Assembly: GCA_022925895.1 (NCBI GenBank)
Contig: JAKSYS010000232.1
Span: 1-64,000, forward strand
Reading direction: 5' to 3'
From: Fragilaria crotonensis
Taxonomy: Eukaryota > Bacillariophyta > Fragilariophyceae > Fragilariales > Fragilariaceae
DNA: 64,000 nt
Part shown: positions 25,843 through 38,070 of the stretch, piece by piece
Layout: each line of letters starts with the position of its first letter
Numbering within the stretch: the stretch's first letter is position 1
The notes under the pieces: model-generated
Database searches by the model: none
Told to the model about the DNA's origin: nothing
The model's input: only the letters and a program-made list of their open reading frames with translations
Translations under genes and position numbers: made by a program

Positions 25843-27189
25843 CTACTGTGCTGTCGACACAGGACGATAAAATTGTGTCATCAAAAGTTGGCGGCTGCCT
25901 TCCTTAGACATGCGTTCTCGCGATAGTCGCATATACCTTAGCCACCGTCGGCGTGTTGTGGTACTCTTCTTCAATATTGACTCCAACGATCTCTCGCAAT
26001 AGTGGCGGTCGCCAGCCTGGACTCTCTCAGGATTGGCATCCACGGCCCTGATCTCGACAGTTTGCGCGTCTCTAATACATCGGAGATGTTCCTCTGTTGA
26101 AGTATGAAGAACATGGTTCCGAGCTTGCCATAGCCGCTGGGTTGTTTGTTGGAGATGGTTCAATATAGTGGTAAGAACTCGGAGACCTTTGCCTTCTTGC
26201 TCGTCGCACGTGTTTCCATATGGACTTAGATCCGCTAACAGTCTCCATTCCACGCTCAGGTATCCTTTTATTGTGTTGTTCCATCCAATACACTCTTGTT
26301 CGTTGAGCGCTTTCCGATTGCGATCCTGTAGTTTTTGTGGGAATTCCTCAATATCTGGGGAGTATACTTCCCCTTTAAGCCAGGCCATGATACTCGCTTT
26401 CAGAATTGGGAAAATTGGATGATATTCTGTAGGGGATAGTCGACGTCCTAACTCCCTCACGCTCTTGTCGTGTTCAGGATTAGCCGTGCATCGAAGTATG
26501 TGGTCTGTTGTTTCGGCATGTTGCTTACAACATGGACATAAGTCCAAATCAACATCGTGCGTTTGTGACACACGTGCCCGTTTTACTCCCGTATGCCATT
26601 GATCGAAGATGAATTTCGAGTGCGACAGCTGCTGTGCCTGTGGATTCAACTTACGGTAAAACCTCCCAAAGACTTCAAAGTCAATACTGTCCCACACTTT
26701 ATTGGTCCATCGTTGGCGTGATTGAATGTATTGGCGCAAGTGATATCCATTGATGTGATATCGGAGTGTAGTAGCTTCCTCTTGGCCAAGGAGACGAATA
26801 CCGTTTACCGAGATGGTCACACGAGCCTCTGGTGTATGTTCGGTATATTCAACTGACTGACGAAGCTTAAGATTGCTGCAATACCATGTTGCCAGCTGAT
26901 TGGCACGATTGTTGTCTACAATATCTTTCCTTTGTCTGCTCCTCCCCGATATCACCTGGTGACCTTTCACCCAAACCGGACGTACCTTTCGCCGCAATAA
27001 ACGTTTCTCTGCTTGTATGATACCCAGAAGATCTGCATTGCTTGGCTGTCGTCGCTTCGTGGACGCATTGTCTTTCTGTTTGATGACTTTCGCTATAGCT
27101 GCCTTGCTGTCTGTCACCCATTGAAATGTACACTTGTGACGCTTTCCCCACAGAGAATGAAGAAGTGATATCCTAATTGACTCTACTAC
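25843..27189 (-). mobile_element. 5'-truncated LINE: RNase H domain and C-terminal zinc-knuckle region
   Basis: The minus strand is open from about 27189 to the stop at 25843 (about 448 codons) with no start codon, as expected for a 5'-truncated non-LTR retrotransposon. RNase H motifs are VTDSKAAIAKV (catalytic Asp), VWVKGHQ, and DNNRANQLATWY (final Asp). Downstream comes the region that follows reverse transcriptases of LINEs: KFIFDQWHTGVKRARV, then LDLCPCCKQHAETTDHILRC, which fits a CCHC zinc-binding pattern. The reverse transcriptase and endonuclease domains are absent. A TAG lies just upstream of the open part. The coding sequence is intact to its end, so this copy is not very old. Confidence 0.82.
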
Positions 27190-27548
27190 TATGTACTAGT
27201 AAACAAGGTTACCTTCAGTTCTTGTAACACTACTCCACACATTGCAGTAATGAGTAATAAGGCATGAAATACAAATGAGCTTTCTTTTCTATTGCCAAAA
27301 TTGGGTTTGCATTTCCTGCAGGCTTTGTTGTCCAGAAAGTCTTCAAATTCCCAATACCACTGCGGCACCTTGTCATTTGGAGTAACTACTTGCAGTCTAA
27401 TAACAGCCATCACCTTCATTGCAAGTGCAAGATTATGAGGACACTCACATCCTAATGGGCATTAGTGGATAAAGAAATGCAGCATGATGAAGCGATAATA
27501 GAGAATACATTGGTACGTCATGATACTAGTTATGGTGTTATGGTCTCA
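27190..27548. other. Spacer between the LINE fragment and the 6.4-kb transposon
   Basis: No gene is seen. The last three bases (TCA, 27546-27548) are the left target-site duplication of the following element. Confidence 0.5.
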
Positions 27549-27565
27549 GGGGCGTTGTTAACTCC
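27549..27565 (+). repeat. Left terminal inverted repeat of the 6.4-kb element
   Basis: 17 bases, GGGGCGTTGTTAACTCC, identical to the reverse complement of 33939-33955. TCA precedes it. Confidence 0.92.
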
Positions 27566-28100
27566 CAAAAAATGCACCAAAACCGGATACAACTCCGGGT
27601 ATTTTGGTATCATGCCGTTATTTTTGGCCGTTAGCCTGATACAGTATCCGTGAACCTGATACGAATTTTTTTGGAACGAAAATATCAGGATCAGGATCAC
27701 GGATACCGTATCACGATGCCGGCTAACGATGAAATAACTTCTAACGGAAACAATGTCTGCATGTACTTCGTAACAATATATGGATATACATACCTCCTAT
27801 CACAAATACGCGCAATATCAATTTGCTGCGAATATTTTGTATTCTCACTTGTTGTTTGTTGAGTGTGATACGAACACCAATACAGTACCAGGTAGTAGCA
27901 TGATACAATGTACAACGTACAATGCAATTAAAACGTGTATGTACTGTGCTTATGGTGCGCATACGATGTCTATTGTCGCTATTGTGTACGTATTGCGCGG
28001 ATGTCGTACTCCAGTGTTGTCAACCGAACCAATGCAATACCGACATTGTGCACGCGAGGCACAACGACGATTGAATCCCAGGAGGGGTTTAGAGCGTTGC

Positions 28101-28135
28101 ACTAGAGACCATTCGGGCTCCGAAGCAGTGGCCCA
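28101..28135 (+). repeat. Left internal inverted repeat of the 6.4-kb element
   Basis: The 35 bases beginning CACTAGAGACCATTCGGGCT match the reverse complement of 33692-33726 at 33 positions. The pair lies about 550 bp inside the left end and 230 bp inside the right end. It could be a second recognition site or the end of an older element. Confidence 0.8.
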
Positions 28136-28332
28136 ATTTCTGGTTATGAGCACCAATTTGGCCAAAACTTTAACGTCTTCTCTGAAATGCAACCTCCATC
28201 TACTTGGGTGAACATTTAAAAAAATTGTTTAAGAAAATAACCGGCCATGCCCAATCCTGCTTCGGCGCGCAAATTTGTGGACTCATTCAGCAGCATGTTT
28301 ATTCGAGCAGCACCAAAAAATGTATTTTTAGC

Positions 28333-29807
28333 ATGGTGCGGATCATGACATCAATGCAGCAGCCATTCTCATGGGAATCACTGATTCCTACATCATTCAA
28401 GAACACTCTGTACATACCATCCCTGAAGATGTCAGTGACCGCAGGATCATTTGTGAGATACAGTGCAGTTGAGGCAGGCCCTCCCAACGTTGGTCGCATT
28501 CTTGAAGTGGTAACATCAATGGATATGATTCCGGATCATGAAAATCAACCACTCCTCCACCTTGAATCATTGTCAGAAGGTCAATTTGAAGATGATCAAC
28601 CAGTTCAGTATGCAAAGGTCAACATATTTAAGGACCGCGAATCGTTTCCTGCTGATTGCAATTTTCCAGAGGGCAGCGATCGGTTTGACAGATGGCAAAG
28701 AATTGTCCAGCTTGGAAAATGTGAGTGGATACCATCGTATTTCATCATTGGCCTTGCATTTGTTGCAATTGAAGATGATGGCTTCTTTGATGATTGCCAT
28801 GGAATGTGTAACTTTTTCCTTGTAAAATATCGCATCGCAGAAAATGGAACTGTTTCTATCATCCCGCGACGAGCGTGTCCACCATTCCCGGACAAATAGA
28901 GAGTTTTCGAAGGATTTGGTCAGTGGATTACTGCGAACTTGTATTTAATTCCATCCGACATATAAGACAAGAAATGCAACGAATTCTGTGCCGTGTCGCA
29001 CAATCGCAGGGCAACTTTGCAGTTAAGAACACAAAATTGCAGGTGCCCAGCTGCACCTGGCACTTTATCAAGGACACGCTGACTACAAAAGGTATCGAGA
29101 GTAACACTGTCAAATTCAGCCAACCCCGCAGCTTCCTTTCCTGGGGACTGGTGTACAATTCATGTCGACACACTGGGTACCTTGACGTGTTGCGTTTTGA
29201 CACGGTATGCAAGTTACAAGTTTTCCGGGCTTTCTTTGGCAACATGGCGGGTTTTGGGGTCCGCAAGAAGCGACCAAAGTATAGCGATGGTCGTTTTCTA
29301 TTGACTGTGAATGATGTGCTTAATGTCGTCTCGTGTCCTTCACAAGAACAAGTAGATGACAACAATACAAATTGTTTGCCATTCCAGCGATTCGGAGTAA
29401 CTGAAGATGGAATCGACTTGGCATATGATGCATCGGAGGGCACTTTACAGATTGTACTGCGGTATCGAAAGGTCGTGGTGACAAGTGAATCAATTCAGTC
29501 TCTTGCTGATGTCGGTGTTGCTGCTGTGGTCGGTGTGAATAAACCGAAAATGGGTTGTGCACTTATTAACATGAGTGCCCAATCACTTGAAATGCTAAGC
29601 TGTGTCGCTCCTGGAATGGAGTTCATCGACAACTTGTATGTGATGCGAGTGCAGGACGTTTTCAAGAGCACTGGTGAAATACGTGCTAAGAAGGTCTATA
29701 AGATACACGAAACGACAAGACGAACAACAAATGTGAATACAATGGAACTCGTTACATACACTGACGTCGCATTTGTCTATCAACAAATTCAAGAAATGCT
29801 CGAATAA
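28333..29807 (+). CDS. Second gene of the 6.4-kb transposon, unknown function, one frameshift
   Basis: The coding sequence lies in two overlapping plus-strand frames: up to a TAG at about 28900, then the next frame to 29807. Adding one base near 28895, in GGACAAATAGAG, joins them into a protein of about 490 aa. I chose the ATG at 28333 (MVRIMTSMQQPFSW); the frame is open back to about 28204. The first half has VTAGSFVRYSAVEAGPPNVGRILEVV, loosely like the entry of a BAH-type chromatin domain, but this is a guess. The second half has CTWHFIKDTL, FFGNMAGFGVRKKRPKYSDGRF and a final TYTDVAFVYQQIQEML. I do not recognise a family. Its place inside the TIRs and its converging orientation make it an accessory gene of the transposon. 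Confidence 0.6.
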
Positions 29808-29844
29808 GAATACTCTCAATTAAGTTAGATGTAGAATGTTCAAC

Positions 29845-32800
29845 TTAGTCGCAACGTGAGCCGTCATCCCTGCTTTGTACACTTTCAGCACAGGTAAAGT
29901 CATCGTCATCATCATCATCGCCTCCCTCATTGCTGTGTTCGTATGACCTACTACTACTTTCATCATCATCACCTTCATCGTTGCTGTCGTCGTACGTACT
30001 ATCATTGTTACTATTCTCACAATTTGAGAAAAGGGAATCACCATGGCCACTGAACCACATCATTCTTCGCTGGAGCCATCGAGCTATTCCCAAGAGTTTG
30101 CTTTTCTTGACTGAATTCCTCGCCAAGCCGCCTTGATTGGTTCGACGGAAAAAATATGATTTTATTAAAGCATTCACGGCTTCCCATCCCTGTTGCGAGA
30201 AGCGATGCAAGCACTTCCACTCTTGCATGTATCGCATAACATGTGAGGACGAAAGCATATGAGTATAATTAGTGCATCCCTCTTTGCCATAGACTTTCAC
30301 CCAGTCACAGAACCAGGCATCGATATGGGCCTGAAAGGTTCGTATCTCAGCTTCGGTTGCATCTGTGTTCTTCCGAAGGAGAATTATTGCTGACCTGTAT
30401 CGATGAAAGCAATGAAGCAACAAATGTTTATTCACATCTGAGTCAGGAAACGAGTCCTCGATGAGCAACTCAATTGAGTTCATTACAGCCCGAGTGCGAT
30501 TGTTGTCCATTGACAACGTCCCCATGTTGCCTTCCTCGGTAAGTGGGAAGCGCCATTGGGAAGGTGCCATCCCTGTACCCAGAATCTTAGTATTGATAGT
30601 GCGTGTGATACGAAGAACATACTCATCTTGTCGTCGACTGGACCCGTTTGCTACTGTCCAGTCCAACAGTCCTTTTTGAGCGTTTGAAATTCCGGAACGA
30701 AGGATACTCTCGATTGATTTCAACCCAACTCGATTTTCCAAATGCAAAATGCATACTACTGCCTGCAACACGAGGTACATAGCTTGATCCTTTGGTTCGC
30801 TGTCAGCCAGCATTTGAGTTATATCTCTCGTCCGCTGCTCATTTACAAGCTGTTGTCGGAGTCGCTGCTGGCGATCAAAAAGTGTGCCAGTGACCGGCAA
30901 TGAACGACTAGCGAGTTCATCGGTGATGTGACGAGCCCAAACTGCTTTGTCGCTTTGCTGACTTGGTTTGAAGTCAATATCAAATCTGTCGCCTTCAATC
31001 ATTAGTTCTCCTTTACGACGAACGTACATCTTCTGCTGCTGGTGAGAGGGGATATTGTCGTGACCTCCTTCGTCGTGGTTGCCAGCATCTGCATCGATAA
31101 GAACATCATGAACTAGCTCAGTCAGGACACGAAGCTCATCCTCAAGTTCAACCCTCACCTCTGGATCAGCCAAAAATGGGTAGTGATAGCACTCTTCATC
31201 ATTGTCGAGGGGCTTCTCTCTGCATAACACGCAGCTTGCCTTGTCTTGAGGAACATGCAAGGATGAAGACCGGCATGGACAAATGTAGCAAAACTTTTCC
31301 TTCACTTTGGCGGCCCCGCCATCATCAAGGGCTCCCCACTGGAGCTTCATATCTCCGGGAAAGGACATCTTAAATTTCTGACAGAGTAATGCCCTGGCCA
31401 CCTCACCATCATTGAACTTGTCGTAGTACAGTGCTCGAAATCCATTGAGAGTTGTCTTATTATCTTTTGCAATCACAATTCGAAGCGGAAAACAGAGATT
31501 CCGGCTCTGAACAAGAGAGTCAGGTTCATGTAGTAGAAGGGGATGCTTTGTTAGTGGATCGCAGAGTCCCATATCATTAAACTTTAATCCCGCCGCTACA
31601 TGAGAAATGGAATTCGTCAGTTGAGCACCATCGGATGTAAGTGCCAACTCCACTGCTCGACTCTTGGCTACCTCCATAAGGCCAAACGCCTCAAACAAAG
31701 TCTTTGTCACCTTTATCGCATCGAATTCGAAGCCCTCGCCAATGTCATTGTCATGATCAATGTTGCTGTTCTCATCGTCGATGCCTTGAAATGTTTGTCC
31801 TATCATAGTGAATGGACAGAATGCCTCGGCAGCTGCTTCTAACATCCTGGCTGTTCGTAATATTGAAGACTTACTAGGAAGAATACCTCGTGCATACTTC
31901 TCAGTCACATCAACATGCCGCAACACCTCGATTCCTGCCAGACTTAAATTGAAGCCGGCAACATCCATGGCCTTCAAAATCTTCCATGGTGTGAAAACAC
32001 TTTTCCGAAGATGGCTTCGAACCTTTTCAATCATGCAGCGTTGTACTTCGCCATCAAGAAAGTTGTCATCCCACATGCAATCAACAAGAATCGCAGCTTT
32101 GCTCTTGTCACAACATCGTTTCATGTCCTTAACGTTCAACAGCTTTGACAACGCAGACCAAGCATCGCCAGCATTGCAGTGTGAAGAAATTTTTTCTATT
32201 TCAGAATAAGTCCATTCAAACGACAGTATACTGTCGACAACAATCTTTGCAAGGCGACTCTCTGGAAACTTGCGTTTGTCTGCAAAAGATGACCTGTTAA
32301 CAAAATCATCTATAAGCATTGACAACTCACGAGAGAATTGAGTATTCTCAATTTGGATACGATGTTTCCTACTCTTCAGCACGGGGTCGCTATGGCACTT
32401 TCCACTTTGTTCAGCATCAGCATCATTGAATTGCTGCGTTTCGATATTCTTACTGTGCACTTTAAGTTGCGCAATCTCTGCTGTAAGAGCCTCCATTTTC
32501 ACAACAAGATTAACATGGCTGCGATCAAGTTCACTCACGCGCTTATTCAACCATGCATTTTTCTCTTCGAGTGCAGTGGTGTACTTTTCTTTCATTGATT
32601 CAAGTTTCTCGTTAGTTGCCGGAGTAACACATGTTGTTATCGGTGGCCGCGTGGCCATGTAGTAGGGCATTGTATAACTTCTGGTTTCGGGGCTGCTGAT
32701 TTCTTCATCAACATTGAGCGACGACAAAGAAGGATTCCCTACTAGTACTTGCTCATGATTGTTATCACTCCCAAATGATGAGGCAAATAATCGTTGGGGT

Positions 32801-33273
32801 GCAACAAGCTCTGATTCTGCACCTGCACTTTGTTCTTCGCCACCACTTTCCTCACCAGCAGCAGCTGTTTCTGAGGTACTCCATTTTACAGAATTTTGAC
32901 GTCGAGGCTTTTTCTTGGTCGGGCTTGCAGTTGGTGATTTGATTTCATTCTTCGCGTCGTTGGTGCAGGGAGATGCAGATAAATTGCAAAATAAAAAATC
33001 ATCTCGTCCTTGTTTTCCGACCTGCTTGGTATTTTTTTCTCGATACGGCTTTTGAAGGGTTGTAGGGTGGGCCAGATTCGAATGTCCACCTGTACACACG
33101 TAGCGTTTCTTCTGACGGTTGGCCCTTTTCATGTTGTTATTTACAGCATCCTCAAGCAGATCACAACCGTGGCAAAAAAAGTAGTCAGGATACTCTTCTT
33201 TCCGATTTTTTCCAAACGAGAGACATGTGACAGGGTAATCCCTGCCTCGTTTGTAGAGATCATGTGGCCGCAT
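29845..33273 (-). CDS. Large DDE-like transposase of the 6.4-kb element, 1142 aa
   Basis: One uninterrupted frame from the ATG at 33273. Regions in order are: a Cys-rich start (FCHGC at 33-37, YVC near 58-60); a Ser/Thr-rich linker; a coiled-coil-like stretch (about 222-280); a core with ALTSDGAQLTNSISH (Asp548) and FPGDMKLQWGALDDGGAAKVKEKFC (Asp641); a zinc-knuckle-like cluster (Cys662, Cys665, Cys667, Cys681, Cys684); then HMLSSSHVMRYMQEW and FSQQGWEAVNALIKSYFFRR (Glu1031). The tail is Asp/Ser-rich and encoded by GAT/CAT runs. Asp548, Asp641 and Glu1031 are proposed as a DDE triad by position and context only. The G-W-E...RRTNQGG block resembles unnamed proteins seen in many eukaryotic genomes. 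An intact reading frame suggests a young or active copy. Confidence 0.75.
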   Translation of the reverse strand: MRPHDLYKRGRDYPVTCLSFGKNRKEEYPDYFFCHGCDLLEDAVNNNMKRANRQKKRYVCTGGHSNLAHPTTLQKPYREKNTKQVGKQGRDDFLFCNLSASPCTNDAKNEIKSPTASPTKKKPRRQNSVKWSTSETAAAGEESGGEEQSAGAESELVAPQRLFASSFGSDNNHEQVLVGNPSLSSLNVDEEISSPETRSYTMPYYMATRPPITTCVTPATNEKLESMKEKYTTALEEKNAWLNKRVSELDRSHVNLVVKMEALTAEIAQLKVHSKNIETQQFNDADAEQSGKCHSDPVLKSRKHRIQIENTQFSRELSMLIDDFVNRSSFADKRKFPESRLAKIVVDSILSFEWTYSEIEKISSHCNAGDAWSALSKLLNVKDMKRCCDKSKAAILVDCMWDDNFLDGEVQRCMIEKVRSHLRKSVFTPWKILKAMDVAGFNLSLAGIEVLRHVDVTEKYARGILPSKSSILRTARMLEAAAEAFCPFTMIGQTFQGIDDENSNIDHDNDIGEGFEFDAIKVTKTLFEAFGLMEVAKSRAVELALTSDGAQLTNSISHVAAGLKFNDMGLCDPLTKHPLLLHEPDSLVQSRNLCFPLRIVIAKDNKTTLNGFRALYYDKFNDGEVARALLCQKFKMSFPGDMKLQWGALDDGGAAKVKEKFCYICPCRSSSLHVPQDKASCVLCREKPLDNDEECYHYPFLADPEVRVELEDELRVLTELVHDVLIDADAGNHDEGGHDNIPSHQQQKMYVRRKGELMIEGDRFDIDFKPSQQSDKAVWARHITDELASRSLPVTGTLFDRQQRLRQQLVNEQRTRDITQMLADSEPKDQAMYLVLQAVVCILHLENRVGLKSIESILRSGISNAQKGLLDWTVANGSSRRQDEYVLRITRTINTKILGTGMAPSQWRFPLTEEGNMGTLSMDNNRTRAVMNSIELLIEDSFPDSDVNKHLLLHCFHRYRSAIILLRKNTDATEAEIRTFQAHIDAWFCDWVKVYGKEGCTNYTHMLSSSHVMRYMQEWKCLHRFSQQGWEAVNALIKSYFFRRTNQGGLARNSVKKSKLLGIARWLQRRMMWFSGHGDSLFSNCENSNNDSTYDDSNDEGDDDESSSRSYEHSNEGGDDDDDDDFTCAESVQSRDDGSRCD

Positions 33274-33691
33274 GCTTTACTTCGCTTGCAATACACTCGA
33301 AAAGTGCTGAGGTACTGCGTTATCTCCTCGACAAAGATCACATGCTACTCTGACTTGTGACAACGCAAATTCTTGCGATCCAAATTTCTCGCGTACATTC
33401 TACGTGTGAATTGGTACACATTTCTAATTTACCTCCACGTGGCAGGTCACTTCTGAGCCACAAATCGACTTCTCCAAAAAGCCGAACGACGATGCGTCCG
33501 TGCATCTCGTGTTACAACCCTATGTAACAAGCTTAACGATGCACTATCTCTACGTCGTTTGAAGAATTGGTTGAGAAATCAAGCTTTGAATGAGCTCAGA
33601 AACCGTTATCGACTCTGTACTAAAGAGTGCTTTCTCAGATCATACAAAAGCGAAAGTGATAACGGTCTTTTAACGAGAGGCTGGCGGGATC

Positions 33692-33726
33692 GGGCCACTG
33701 CTCCAGAGCCCGAATGGTCTCTAGTG
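33692..33726 (-). repeat. Right internal inverted repeat of the 6.4-kb element
   Basis: Partner of 28101-28135 in inverted orientation, with two mismatches in 35 bases. Confidence 0.8.
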
Positions 33727-33938
33727 GCGTGTCACAAACATCCGTTTTTGCTGAACGAACCATCAAATTGTGTGACGTTATGTGGGCAGTTGAAATAAGT
33801 GTGGATGCGTCAGCAATCATCGTGATACAAACTTTTGAGTTAATAACGAATTCTTGTATCACGGACTTTCAGTTTAACTAAAAATATATTTAACGTTAAG
33901 TTCACAACTGCCTGATACAAAATTTTGTGATACGCAAA

Positions 33939-33955
33939 GGAGTTAACAACGCCCC
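33939..33955 (-). repeat. Right terminal inverted repeat of the 6.4-kb element
   Basis: GGAGTTAACAACGCCCC, the exact reverse complement of the left end, followed by TCA. Confidence 0.92.
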
Positions 33956-34016
33956 TCAAACCCCCTGGTGCGGCCGTGCGCTAGTTCTACCAGTAGTAGG
34001 TACTACTAAGCTACTA

Positions 34017-35078: not shown

Positions 35079-36938
35079 TCACTCCTGCCTGTTTGCGTGC
35101 TGGACTTCTTGCAGAAGTTGAACAAGTTGCAACGTGTCAGGCAGTGGCGGAAAAGATTCTGATGTGATGTGAGAATTAGTACCGTCGATGATGATATTCT
35201 TGTTTGATGTCCCATTGTTTGTCTCGCCAAGAATGTGCCCATGGATGAGCGGTTGGTTGTCTTCATGATGGTAAGAAAGGAGGGGCTCCGAATGATTTCT
35301 CGTCTCGTCATCGCTGCTATTGTACTCATGATCACCACTCCCATCATCCTCATCGTTAGCCTGTTGCTGCTGGAAAGGATTGTCGTTTCGGTTTCTGAAG
35401 GTGTCGTCGTTAACTTCCTGCTCGTCGGCGGTGGCGTGCTGCTCTTCCTCCTGCTGCTGGTTGTGCGCTTGCTGGTTGCCTCCATGGTAAGAAAGAAGAG
35501 GCTCCGAATGATTTCTCAGCATCTCGTCATCATCACTGGCATCGTCATCGTTCTCATCACGACTCTCATCATCGCTGTTAACCTGCTGCTCCACAGGACA
35601 GTTGATTCCGTTTCTGACAAAGGTGTTGACTTCGTCGTCGTCGGCTGCATGCTCGTCCTCCTGACGCTGGTCGGCTGCATGCTCTTCCTCCTGACGTTGG
35701 TCGGCTGCATGCTCTTCCTCGTCCTGCACTGAAGGATAATAGCTGTACGTTCCATGACGCCATGCATTCCTTACCATCTGTGCAGGTAAGTCACGACAAG
35801 ACGTCGAACACCATTCAGCGATGTGTTTTCTGGTCGGTGGATCGATTTTCCCTTGGTGTAAACCAGTACTAATCATCCATTCCTCCCACAGTTTGCGCAA
35901 TCTGGATTTGAATGGTTTATTAACGCCAACATCAACCGGTTGGCACAGAGAAGTGCAACCACCAGGAATGTGTTCGACCTCAACACCCAAATCCTCGATT
36001 GCGTTTACAGTCGATTTCATCATGTGACAGCGGTAAGAGTCAAGCAACAGCAGCGGAACAATTCCAGGAGGTGCCTGGTCTACGTACGGCTTCAAGATTC
36101 TCTCGATCCATAAATGCATCACTCTTTCATCCATCCATGCATTGCCTTGGCATGCGTACACTATGTCATCTGGATAAGTGACGAATTCGTTTTTTTCAAT
36201 GCGACCATTTGGAGCTCCTTTAAAAACAAGTAATGGGGTAAGTACACGACCGCTTGCAGACACTGTCATGGCACATGTTACCCTCTTTGTGTCGCTTGTT
36301 GACTTTCGAATGTGAATTGTTCGCTGTCCCGCTAACTCAAGCGTACTCTTCGCATTGAATGTAAATGGAACAGGTGTTTGATCCATATTAAGGATAAAAT
36401 CTTCATGACGGTTGCTCTGTATAAGTTTTGGACGGATTGTTCGCACGTAATCTTGAGCCAAACCTGCAGTCTCGGATGGGGATCGCTGGCTTTCATGTGT
36501 TCCCATCCTGTGGACGAGACTGTGTTTTCTGATCCACCTCCGTACACTTTGATACCTTGCCCGGCTTGATTTTCGTTGGAACTCCGCCATCAATCGAGAA
36601 GCTTGAATGACGACAGTAGAAATAGAAACCGCAAACCCTTGTTCTCTTAGTTCAAAGATGAATTTGAGTAGATCATTTTCAATTGGCGCTAGGACTGAAG
36701 TAGGACCCTTAGCTGTACTCTTTGCCTTTGAGTTGCCGTGTTCCATCATGGTCCTTGAAATTGTCGACCATTCTCTGTACTGTTTCGGAATTATGTTGAG
36801 TGCTCGACATGCGGCCCTGATAGATTCACCTGCCTCTACGCGCCTTCTCACATTCCTAACGATTGCAAGCCTCTCAAAGTTCGCGAAACGCCTCCTTCTG
36901 CTGCTGTTACTGAGAGTAGGAGTAGTAGTCCCATCCAT
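35079..36938 (-). CDS. Pogo/Tigger (DDE_1) transposase, 619 aa
   Basis: The ATG at 36938 starts a helix-turn-helix region (FERLAIVRNVRRRVEAGESI to PKQYREW, about 20-57), followed by a CENP-B-like second DNA-binding region (about 85-150). The catalytic domain has FILNMDQTPVPF (Asp186), LLLLDSYRCHM (Asp300) and CQPVDVGVNKPFK (Asp336), the DDD triad typical of pogo elements. The C-terminal 250 residues are acidic and repetitive: three 10-residue units of the EEEHAADQRQ type, and two copies of NHSEPLLSYH. A further copy of that motif lies just beyond the stop in another frame (near 35045). The frame is open upstream of the ATG, but that part leaves the element. Confidence 0.92.
   Translation of the reverse strand: MDGTTTPTLSNSSRRRRFANFERLAIVRNVRRRVEAGESIRAACRALNIIPKQYREWSTISRTMMEHGNSKAKSTAKGPTSVLAPIENDLLKFIFELREQGFAVSISTVVIQASRLMAEFQRKSSRARYQSVRRWIRKHSLVHRMGTHESQRSPSETAGLAQDYVRTIRPKLIQSNRHEDFILNMDQTPVPFTFNAKSTLELAGQRTIHIRKSTSDTKRVTCAMTVSASGRVLTPLLVFKGAPNGRIEKNEFVTYPDDIVYACQGNAWMDERVMHLWIERILKPYVDQAPPGIVPLLLLDSYRCHMMKSTVNAIEDLGVEVEHIPGGCTSLCQPVDVGVNKPFKSRLRKLWEEWMISTGLHQGKIDPPTRKHIAEWCSTSCRDLPAQMVRNAWRHGTYSYYPSVQDEEEHAADQRQEEEHAADQRQEDEHAADDDEVNTFVRNGINCPVEQQVNSDDESRDENDDDASDDDEMLRNHSEPLLSYHGGNQQAHNQQQEEEQHATADEQEVNDDTFRNRNDNPFQQQQANDEDDGSGDHEYNSSDDETRNHSEPLLSYHHEDNQPLIHGHILGETNNGTSNKNIIIDGTNSHITSESFPPLPDTLQLVQLLQEVQHANRQE
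35641..35730. repeat. 30-bp in-frame tandem repeat inside the Tigger transposase
   Basis: About three units of 30 bp centred on GGTCGGCTGCATGCTCTTCC, on the plus strand. On the minus strand they encode repeats of the type EEEHAADQRQ. The repeat keeps the frame and expands the acidic tail. Confidence 0.75.
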
Positions 36939-37127
36939 TATGGACAAGAACGATGTCAACAAACAAAACTGTGAACGAACGCAACAGTCACGTTTCACAA
37001 ACGCGCGCCAAATAACAAGTAGGTAAAAAGACTTTTTTATGGCGCACATTTGGACGGAATCTTGCTCTTGGTTTACGTAGGTTAAGACCCACCCCGCAAA
37101 AAAAGTGTCAAAACCCGCACAATTCCT

Positions 37128-37152
37128 GGGTCTTAACCAGAGAGTTTTACGG
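37128..37152 (-). repeat. Right TIR of the pogo/Tigger element
   Basis: Exact reverse complement of 34017-34041, followed by the duplicated TA. Confidence 0.95.
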
Positions 37153-38070
37153 TAGGTATTGTACAAATTCCATGCACTATGAATATGGACAGTAAAGTCG
37201 GATTTCGGATTGCTAAATACCGTAGACCCCGAACACCGAATACCGACTACCGACTCCTACGAGTACTGAGTGTGTGGAACAAGGTACTAGTACTGTGTAC
37301 TCCGGAGTACCTCTCTCAGGGTTCATGTTGTATTCGTTCCATATGTTCGGTACGCTGCACGCCATACGTAATTCTACAGTCAGTGCAAAAGATGTCATAG
37401 TTCCCAAAATGGTGGTAACACGTACTGCACCACGCACTATTGTTAGGAATGTACACCACGCCAATCGACGAAGGCACCTACACTATGCAGATGCTTGTGA
37501 ACATATAAGCAATACTGGAAATCCAGAAGTTCCGTGGATTCCGACTGGCATCGCACAACACACGATGCAATTCCGACTTCCAAGGTCATCCTACTGTTCT
37601 ACTCATGTGCTATTCTGTACTCGAGTATGTAGCAGTGCTTGATCGTCAGTGCGACTGCTTGCCTAATGGGACAGATACTCCGAGTACAAGTATGCAAGTA
37701 CTTGACCTTGCTGTGCCAGCGATGATAGGCAAAGGAAAGGGTGACCGCAAGAACTGTTGTGAGTACTTGTACCCGTACCCAGTACGAGTAGAATAGTGAA
37801 TAACCAGTATCAAATTGGCCATCTGCATAGAGCGGTCGCCAGAAGTGACAATTGATGTGTCGCGACATAGCGGTACATGCACATACTCCGAGTATATGTG
37901 TATGGTGTCGACGAATCCAAGAGAATCTCGGTTCAGTTCTTCTTCACACAGCCAGGATGTCAAGGTTCCCGTCATAATCACAAGATCATCACAGAAATAC
38001 GACTACACTGATTAGTATTATGAGAGTACATTCATGAGCCGAGATCTTCAAACTCTTCTCTTAGATCATC
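37153..38070. other. Spacer between the Tigger element and RIC8
   Basis: No gene is supported. GTAC-rich sequence is dense: a 14-base perfect palindrome GTACTCCGGAGTAC lies near 37297, and TACTCCGAGTA occurs at 37676 and 37884. The right part is the presumed RIC8 promoter. Confidence 0.45.

Follow-up and report, generated by a model that had tools for sequence, protein, structure and literature searches.

Within the window analysed here, a stretch of 64,000 nucleotides of contig JAKSYS010000232.1 from Fragilaria crotonensis, the block from position 27549 to 33955 (6.4 kb) very probably consists of two nested DNA transposons, the inner of which is a copy of an undescribed two-gene family with terminal inverted repeats (TIRs). 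This inner family is a genuine, recently mobile DNA transposon with an unusual target-site duplication of 1 bp, and it represents at least a new variant of TIR transposon and possibly a new superfamily. A sequence-only reading of the block had described one single transposon, but the outer ends are the termini of one element and the inverted repeat noticed further in those of another, inserted within it. The genome searched for relatives amounts to 62 Mb in 881 contigs, and the main parts of the block are the following.

27549 to 28099, plus strand: left part of the outer, non-autonomous PIF/Harbinger element, matching an uninterrupted copy (L005), with its 17-bp TIR at 27549-27565 and TCA at 27546-27548
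28100 to 33726, no strand assigned: inner two-gene transposon (branch A, 5,627 bp), with ends common to other copies of gene 1 and G at 28099 and 33727
28100 to 28137, plus strand: left TIR of the inner element (CACTAGAGACCATTCGGGCTC...), 38 nt, 92% complementary
28204 to 29807, plus strand: gene 2, the convergent accessory gene, here divided between the overlapping frames 28204-28899 and 28875-29807
29845 to 33273, minus strand: gene 1, the proposed transposase, 1142 amino acids, an open frame
33689 to 33726, minus strand: right TIR of the inner element, pairing with 28100-28137
33727 to 33955, plus strand: right part of the outer Harbinger element, matching L005, with its TIR at 33939-33955 and TCA at 33956-33958

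The structural features from which the single transposon had been proposed are all present, namely the matched 17-bp ends (GGGGCGTTGTTAACTCC at 27549-27565 on the plus and 33939-33955 on the minus strand), the TCA just outside both of them, the second inverted repeat and the TGATAC-type repeats near both ends (TGATAC or GTATCA, with 6 copies in the left outer part and 4 in the right, a single one in the intervening 5.6 kb and 59 in the entire window). What these ends belong to is seen elsewhere in the genome. Specifically, the 17-bp end was found at 40 places with at most 2 mismatches, compared to 1 for the reversed control pattern, and the ends are paired at 14 loci (the window and L005-L017), 10 of which have identical 3-bp TNA flanks (the exceptions are L008-L010, which have common flanks, and L011). 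At four of the loci (L014-L017) the ends lie 3.8-4.8 kb apart and enclose transposase frames and a second gene, and the three transposase frames scanned (L014, L015 and L016) match DDE_Tnp_4 (PF13359) with E-values of 2.8e-23, 2.4e-20 and 3.2e-26. The second gene of these four loci is convergent, and no Pfam match above cut-off was obtained for it in the three frames scanned. Sequence matching the outer parts of the window is found in three shorter loci (L005-L007, around 0.7-0.8 kb); in L005, on contig C361, the sequences corresponding to 27548-28099 and 33735-33959 of the window are contiguous, and the joined flanks of the window are 96% identical to it there. Since L005 holds both outer parts together at this level of identity, the outer block is a Harbinger element interrupted after position 28099, and it is non-autonomous and codes for no transposase itself.

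The outer element, to which the TGATAC repeats belong as well, is thus of the PIF/Harbinger (PHIS) kind by both its 3-bp TWA/TNA duplication and the DDE_Tnp_4 domain of its longer coding relatives, and the 17-bp ends and TCA are not the termini of the element that carries the 1142-residue protein, as had been proposed. A two-gene layout is common to PHIS and the inner element, but the latter has other ends, no match to DDE_Tnp_4 and a duplication of 1 bp, not 3 bp.

The inner element carries its own ends (CACTAGAGACCATTCGG), and these are found family-wide. In branch A, the borders of the relatives of gene 1 (L018-L027) carry CACTASAGACCATTCGG or near forms, and seven of these ten relatives (L018-L021, L023, L025 and L027, with L021 and L023 being one insertion) have both inner ends with at most 4 mismatches to the 21-base end of the window. 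The first base of the inner end is altered in L020; L024 has 5 mismatches at one end and 3 at the other, and for L022 and L026 only 6-mismatch matches were obtained. None of the ten has paired 17-bp ends (at most 4 mismatches), a lone match with 3 mismatches being present in L027; copies with different ends, which had been named beforehand as a refutation of the sequence-only reading, were therefore found. The family forms two branches in this genome. Branch B shares around 31% identity with the window across gene 1 and has CAATAGCGACC ends at L029-L031, with one clear end at L028; its ends begin with CAATA, and the end consensus of branch A is CACTASAGACC. The three end patterns searched were found at 288, 126 and 84 places, compared to 62, 33 and 0 for the reversed controls.

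The duplication of a single base at the insertion site is the most unusual property of the family. For this analysis, an end pair was defined as neighbouring plus and minus ends within 9 kb among the matches listed (100 of 288 places, 100 of 126 and all 84 of 84), and the flanks were transcribed by hand; the lone ends on C235 and C488 (288-place set) and 12 of 13 rows with 2 mismatches (126-place set) were omitted, none of which pairs within 9 kb among the listed rows. This gave 73 pairs, from which 6 duplicates were dropped, and the same base was present on both flanks in 56 of the remaining 67. A stricter filter removed five more pairs by their common 8-base flank (in two of these, on C58 and C690, the common 8 bases were taken as coincidence, and both show the matching base), and the resulting 62 independent end pairs have a matching base in 51 cases. 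When one side was shuffled 100,000 times, the mean was 16.7 and the maximum 33. The match is seen in branch A (29 of 37), in branch B (22 of 25) and in elements over 4.5 kb (13 of 16).

Exact flank matches of 2 bp were found in 4 of the 62 pairs, of 3 bp in 1 and of 4 bp or longer in none, and among the 67 pairs the junction base matched directly with a frequency of 0.84, as against 0.13-0.42 for the other first-base offset combinations. A 3-bp duplication of the CACTA type at the inner ends was rejected on the basis of these offsets and of the rarity of longer matches. The duplicated base can be any of the four, and around it purines are weakly favoured at -3 and pyrimidines at +3; a strict target motif was not supported. 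Read likewise, the Harbinger ends in this genome show 3 bp and serve as a positive control for the reading of 1 bp.

Unoccupied sites tell the same. The flanks of 29 copies were joined with one of the two bases removed, and 26 of these junctions were searched; sites across the junction were found for five insertions (L025, L029, L031, L042 and L043). Eight paralogous empty sites were then compared with 0, 1, 2 or 3 bp removed, and the removal of 1 bp fits best at seven of them (60/60 twice for L029, 60/60 for L031, 59/60 for L043, 57/60 twice for L042 and 56/60 for L025 against L057).

Over 5.37 kb, three complete branch-B copies, on C38 (L031), C58 (L061) and C274 (L060), share 99.8% identity; they occupy three different sites with the duplicated bases G, C and A, respectively, and so the family has moved recently. 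Short derivatives exist in both branches, of around 120-240 bp in branch B and 0.3-1.8 kb in branch A. One of the short branch-B copies (L032, G000:C22:106450-106870) is an almost perfect palindrome that could fold back on itself. In genome searches, gene 1 gave 47 and 57 matches and gene 2, queried from each of the two branches, 47 and 73; many broken as well as open copies are seen among them. Some insertions on different contigs have common flanks (C26/C233, C131/C153, C336/C548, C279/C845 and C386/C548/C877), and the assembly therefore seems to contain both haplotypes or duplicated segments.

Gene 1 and gene 2 are conserved as a pair. The sequence-only reading had reported an intact protein of 1142 residues together with a convergent gene; the intact frame was recovered and so was the convergent gene, though the window has the latter in two separate frames. 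It is a single open frame in L018, L025, L029, L030 and L031, and it is convergent to gene 1 at all 15 loci compared (the window and L018-L031). Gene 2 of branch B has 26-28% identity to that of L018, and the ratio of nonsynonymous to synonymous substitution rates (Ka/Ks) was 0.085-0.181 in five of seven comparisons, Ks being saturated in the other two. A BAH-like domain in gene 2, which we suspected from a pattern presumably typical of such domains, was supported by no tool. Within gene 1, the following parts were read from the alignment.

33082 to 33225, minus strand: N-terminal Cys/His cluster (C17, C34, C37, C60, H64), conserved in the branch-B proteins aligned
31630 to 31632, minus strand: D548 codon, the putative first catalytic acid, within the SDGA / IDGA motif; Asp in 16 of the 17 stretches aligned
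31351 to 31353, minus strand: D641 codon, the putative second catalytic acid, with C662xxC665 after it; Asp in all 16 stretches aligned
30181 to 30183, minus strand: E1031 codon, the putative catalytic Glu, within the SQQGWEAxN motif; Glu in 15 of the 16 stretches aligned

Neither gene gave a significant match in Pfam, NCBIfam, PHROGs or PDB. The best weak Pfam matches, below the cut-offs and to coiled-coil or unrelated models, were KASH_CCD (E 0.006) and NRBF2 (0.0069), and further matches below cut-off were NinF (0.035), the EEA1 coiled coil in PDB (0.093) and two in NCBIfam (0.15 and 0.37). In viral and prokaryote contigs searched for relatives of gene 1, a short pattern matched 58 and 32 stretches, respectively, of which zero were confirmed, and no match was obtained in plasmids with a core piece of 586 amino acids as the query. 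The suggestion of an undescribed mobile system consequently holds for the 1142-residue protein with its convergent partner, unrecognised by every library searched, but not for the borders that had been given to it.

The best reading of the inner element is that of a DDE cut-and-paste transposon, either of a new superfamily or as a very remote relative of CACTA/EnSpm (CMC), with a catalytic fold that we infer. The inner family has TIRs and a target-site duplication, as is general for DDE cut-and-paste elements. In the mechanism proposed, gene 1 would encode a DDE-type transposase binding the ends (CACTASAGACC in branch A and CAATAGCGACC in branch B) via its N-terminal Cys/His cluster, which may be a zinc-binding part for end recognition, as judged from its residues. 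The enzyme would excise the element and then link the 3′ ends of it to the target, at points on the two strands that lie only one base apart, and repair of the resulting 1-nt gaps would leave the 1-bp duplication; gene 2 would act as a dedicated accessory protein, binding the ends or the target.

Several observations weigh against this interpretation. Many other acids of gene 1 are as invariant as D548, D641 and E1031, and the triad is therefore a proposal; AlphaFold, run on the whole protein and on a 201-residue piece of it from single sequences (no alignment), gave a mean predicted local distance difference test score (pLDDT) of 34 for both, such that the models are unusable as support for an RNase H fold. 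Regarding the duplication, 11 of the 62 pairs have no matching base, and the empty site of L025 as compared with L056 fits better at 0 bp (53/60), next to an A-run of altered length. L005 carries small indels at its junction, owing to which the length of the duplication at the site of the window is unreadable, although G stands on both sides. In the window, gene 2 is broken into two frames. Finally, recent movement is read from sequence comparison, with no transposition directly observed.

The alternative that survives best, with a real but lesser chance of being correct, is that the inner element is a very divergent CMC transposon whose duplication has shrunk to 1 bp, and that no superfamily of its own is needed. 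Inverted-repeat ends, large proteins and the CACTA start of the branch-A ends are alike in the two. The order D ... D ... CxxC ... E in gene 1, where a long stretch precedes the last E, resembles what we take to be the CMC pattern, and this is a lead and not a test. By its ends and this residue order, CMC is the nearest known group to the inner family, but the branch-B ends start with CAATA, and the CACTA model Transposase_21 (PF02992) was absent from the matches of 8 family members at E<=1. A genome search with PF02992 also gave nothing, though the control was likewise silent. The transposase models of KDZ and Plavaka elements are present in Pfam-A, and none of them was among the matches of the same 8 members at E<=1. 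In addition, CMC duplications are given as 2-4 bp (PMC4482050), as opposed to the 1 bp found here (flanks agree over 1 bp in 51 of the 62 pairs, over 2 bp in 4, over 3 bp in 1 and over 4 bp in none).

No DNA transposon with a 1-bp duplication is known to us, and phrase searches of open-licence papers returned no report of one among the matches listed, where a 1-bp target site was mentioned in a single paper, on LINE-1. The duplication lengths quoted in passages of two papers are 0 for Spy, 2 for ISL2EU, 3 for PIF/Harbinger, 2-4 for CMC, 4-5 for Ginger, 5-8 for hAT, 8-9 for Merlin and 3-4 or 9-10 for Academ (PMC4482050, PMC10045372), and 1 bp is absent from the lengths so quoted. The Spy group of PHIS illustrates that DDE transposons can deviate from the usual lengths, as it has no duplication at all (PMC4482050), but it targets AAATTT, whereas the inner family duplicates one base of any kind and has no sequence match to it.

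It is improbable that gene 1 is a non-DDE enzyme (e.g. a tyrosine recombinase or HUH enzyme) and that the single matching base arises from a different chemistry. Neither a fold nor a profile speaks for a DDE core, which leaves room for such an enzyme; set against it are the inverted-repeat ends on both sides, the invariant D548, D641 and E1031, and the duplication of any of the four bases, which is easier to reconcile with a staggered cut of the target than with a common core sequence. Even less credible is the idea that both genes are passengers or captured host genes in elements mobilised by another protein: no known transposase is matched by either gene, but the same convergent pair is kept at all 15 loci across two branches as divergent as these (around 31% identity in gene 1 and 26-28% in gene 2), Ka/Ks is 0.085-0.181 where computable, and no further gene is known in complete copies, though additional short genes were not searched for. 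A single transposon of 6.4 kb with the 17-bp ends and a TCA duplication as its borders, suggested by the matched ends and TCA that flank the whole block, has virtually no chance of being right and was rejected, given that the ten protein relatives lack paired 17-bp ends and seven have both inner ends, that longer elements with such 17-bp ends code for Harbinger genes, and that the outer element is found uninterrupted elsewhere.

Other features were seen in the window and the genome. At 35079-37166 (minus strand) of the window there is a frame of 695 amino acids that matches DDE_1 (PF03184, E 2.5e-23) and is probably another transposase or a derivative of one. Another frame of 424 amino acids, at 25843-27117 (minus strand), has no Pfam match at E<=1e-5 and resembles, by eye only, the end of a reverse-transcriptase-type protein. 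Genome-wide, there are 19 silicon-transporter matches, many of them strong (best E 4e-193), in keeping with a diatom genome, and at G000:C97:29749-33762 three consecutive silicon-transporter domain matches lie in one open frame of 1456 amino acids, possibly a fused triple transporter.

The length of a target-site duplication mirrors how far apart the two strand-transfer sites lie on the target, and it tends to characterise a superfamily (PMC10045372). In a 1-bp system of the kind proposed for the inner family, the two joining sites would lie almost opposite each other on the target, and this geometry becomes testable. Annotation tools that require a duplication of at least 2 bp would miss such elements or place their borders wrongly, so that relatives of the family may hide among the repeats classified as 'unknown'.

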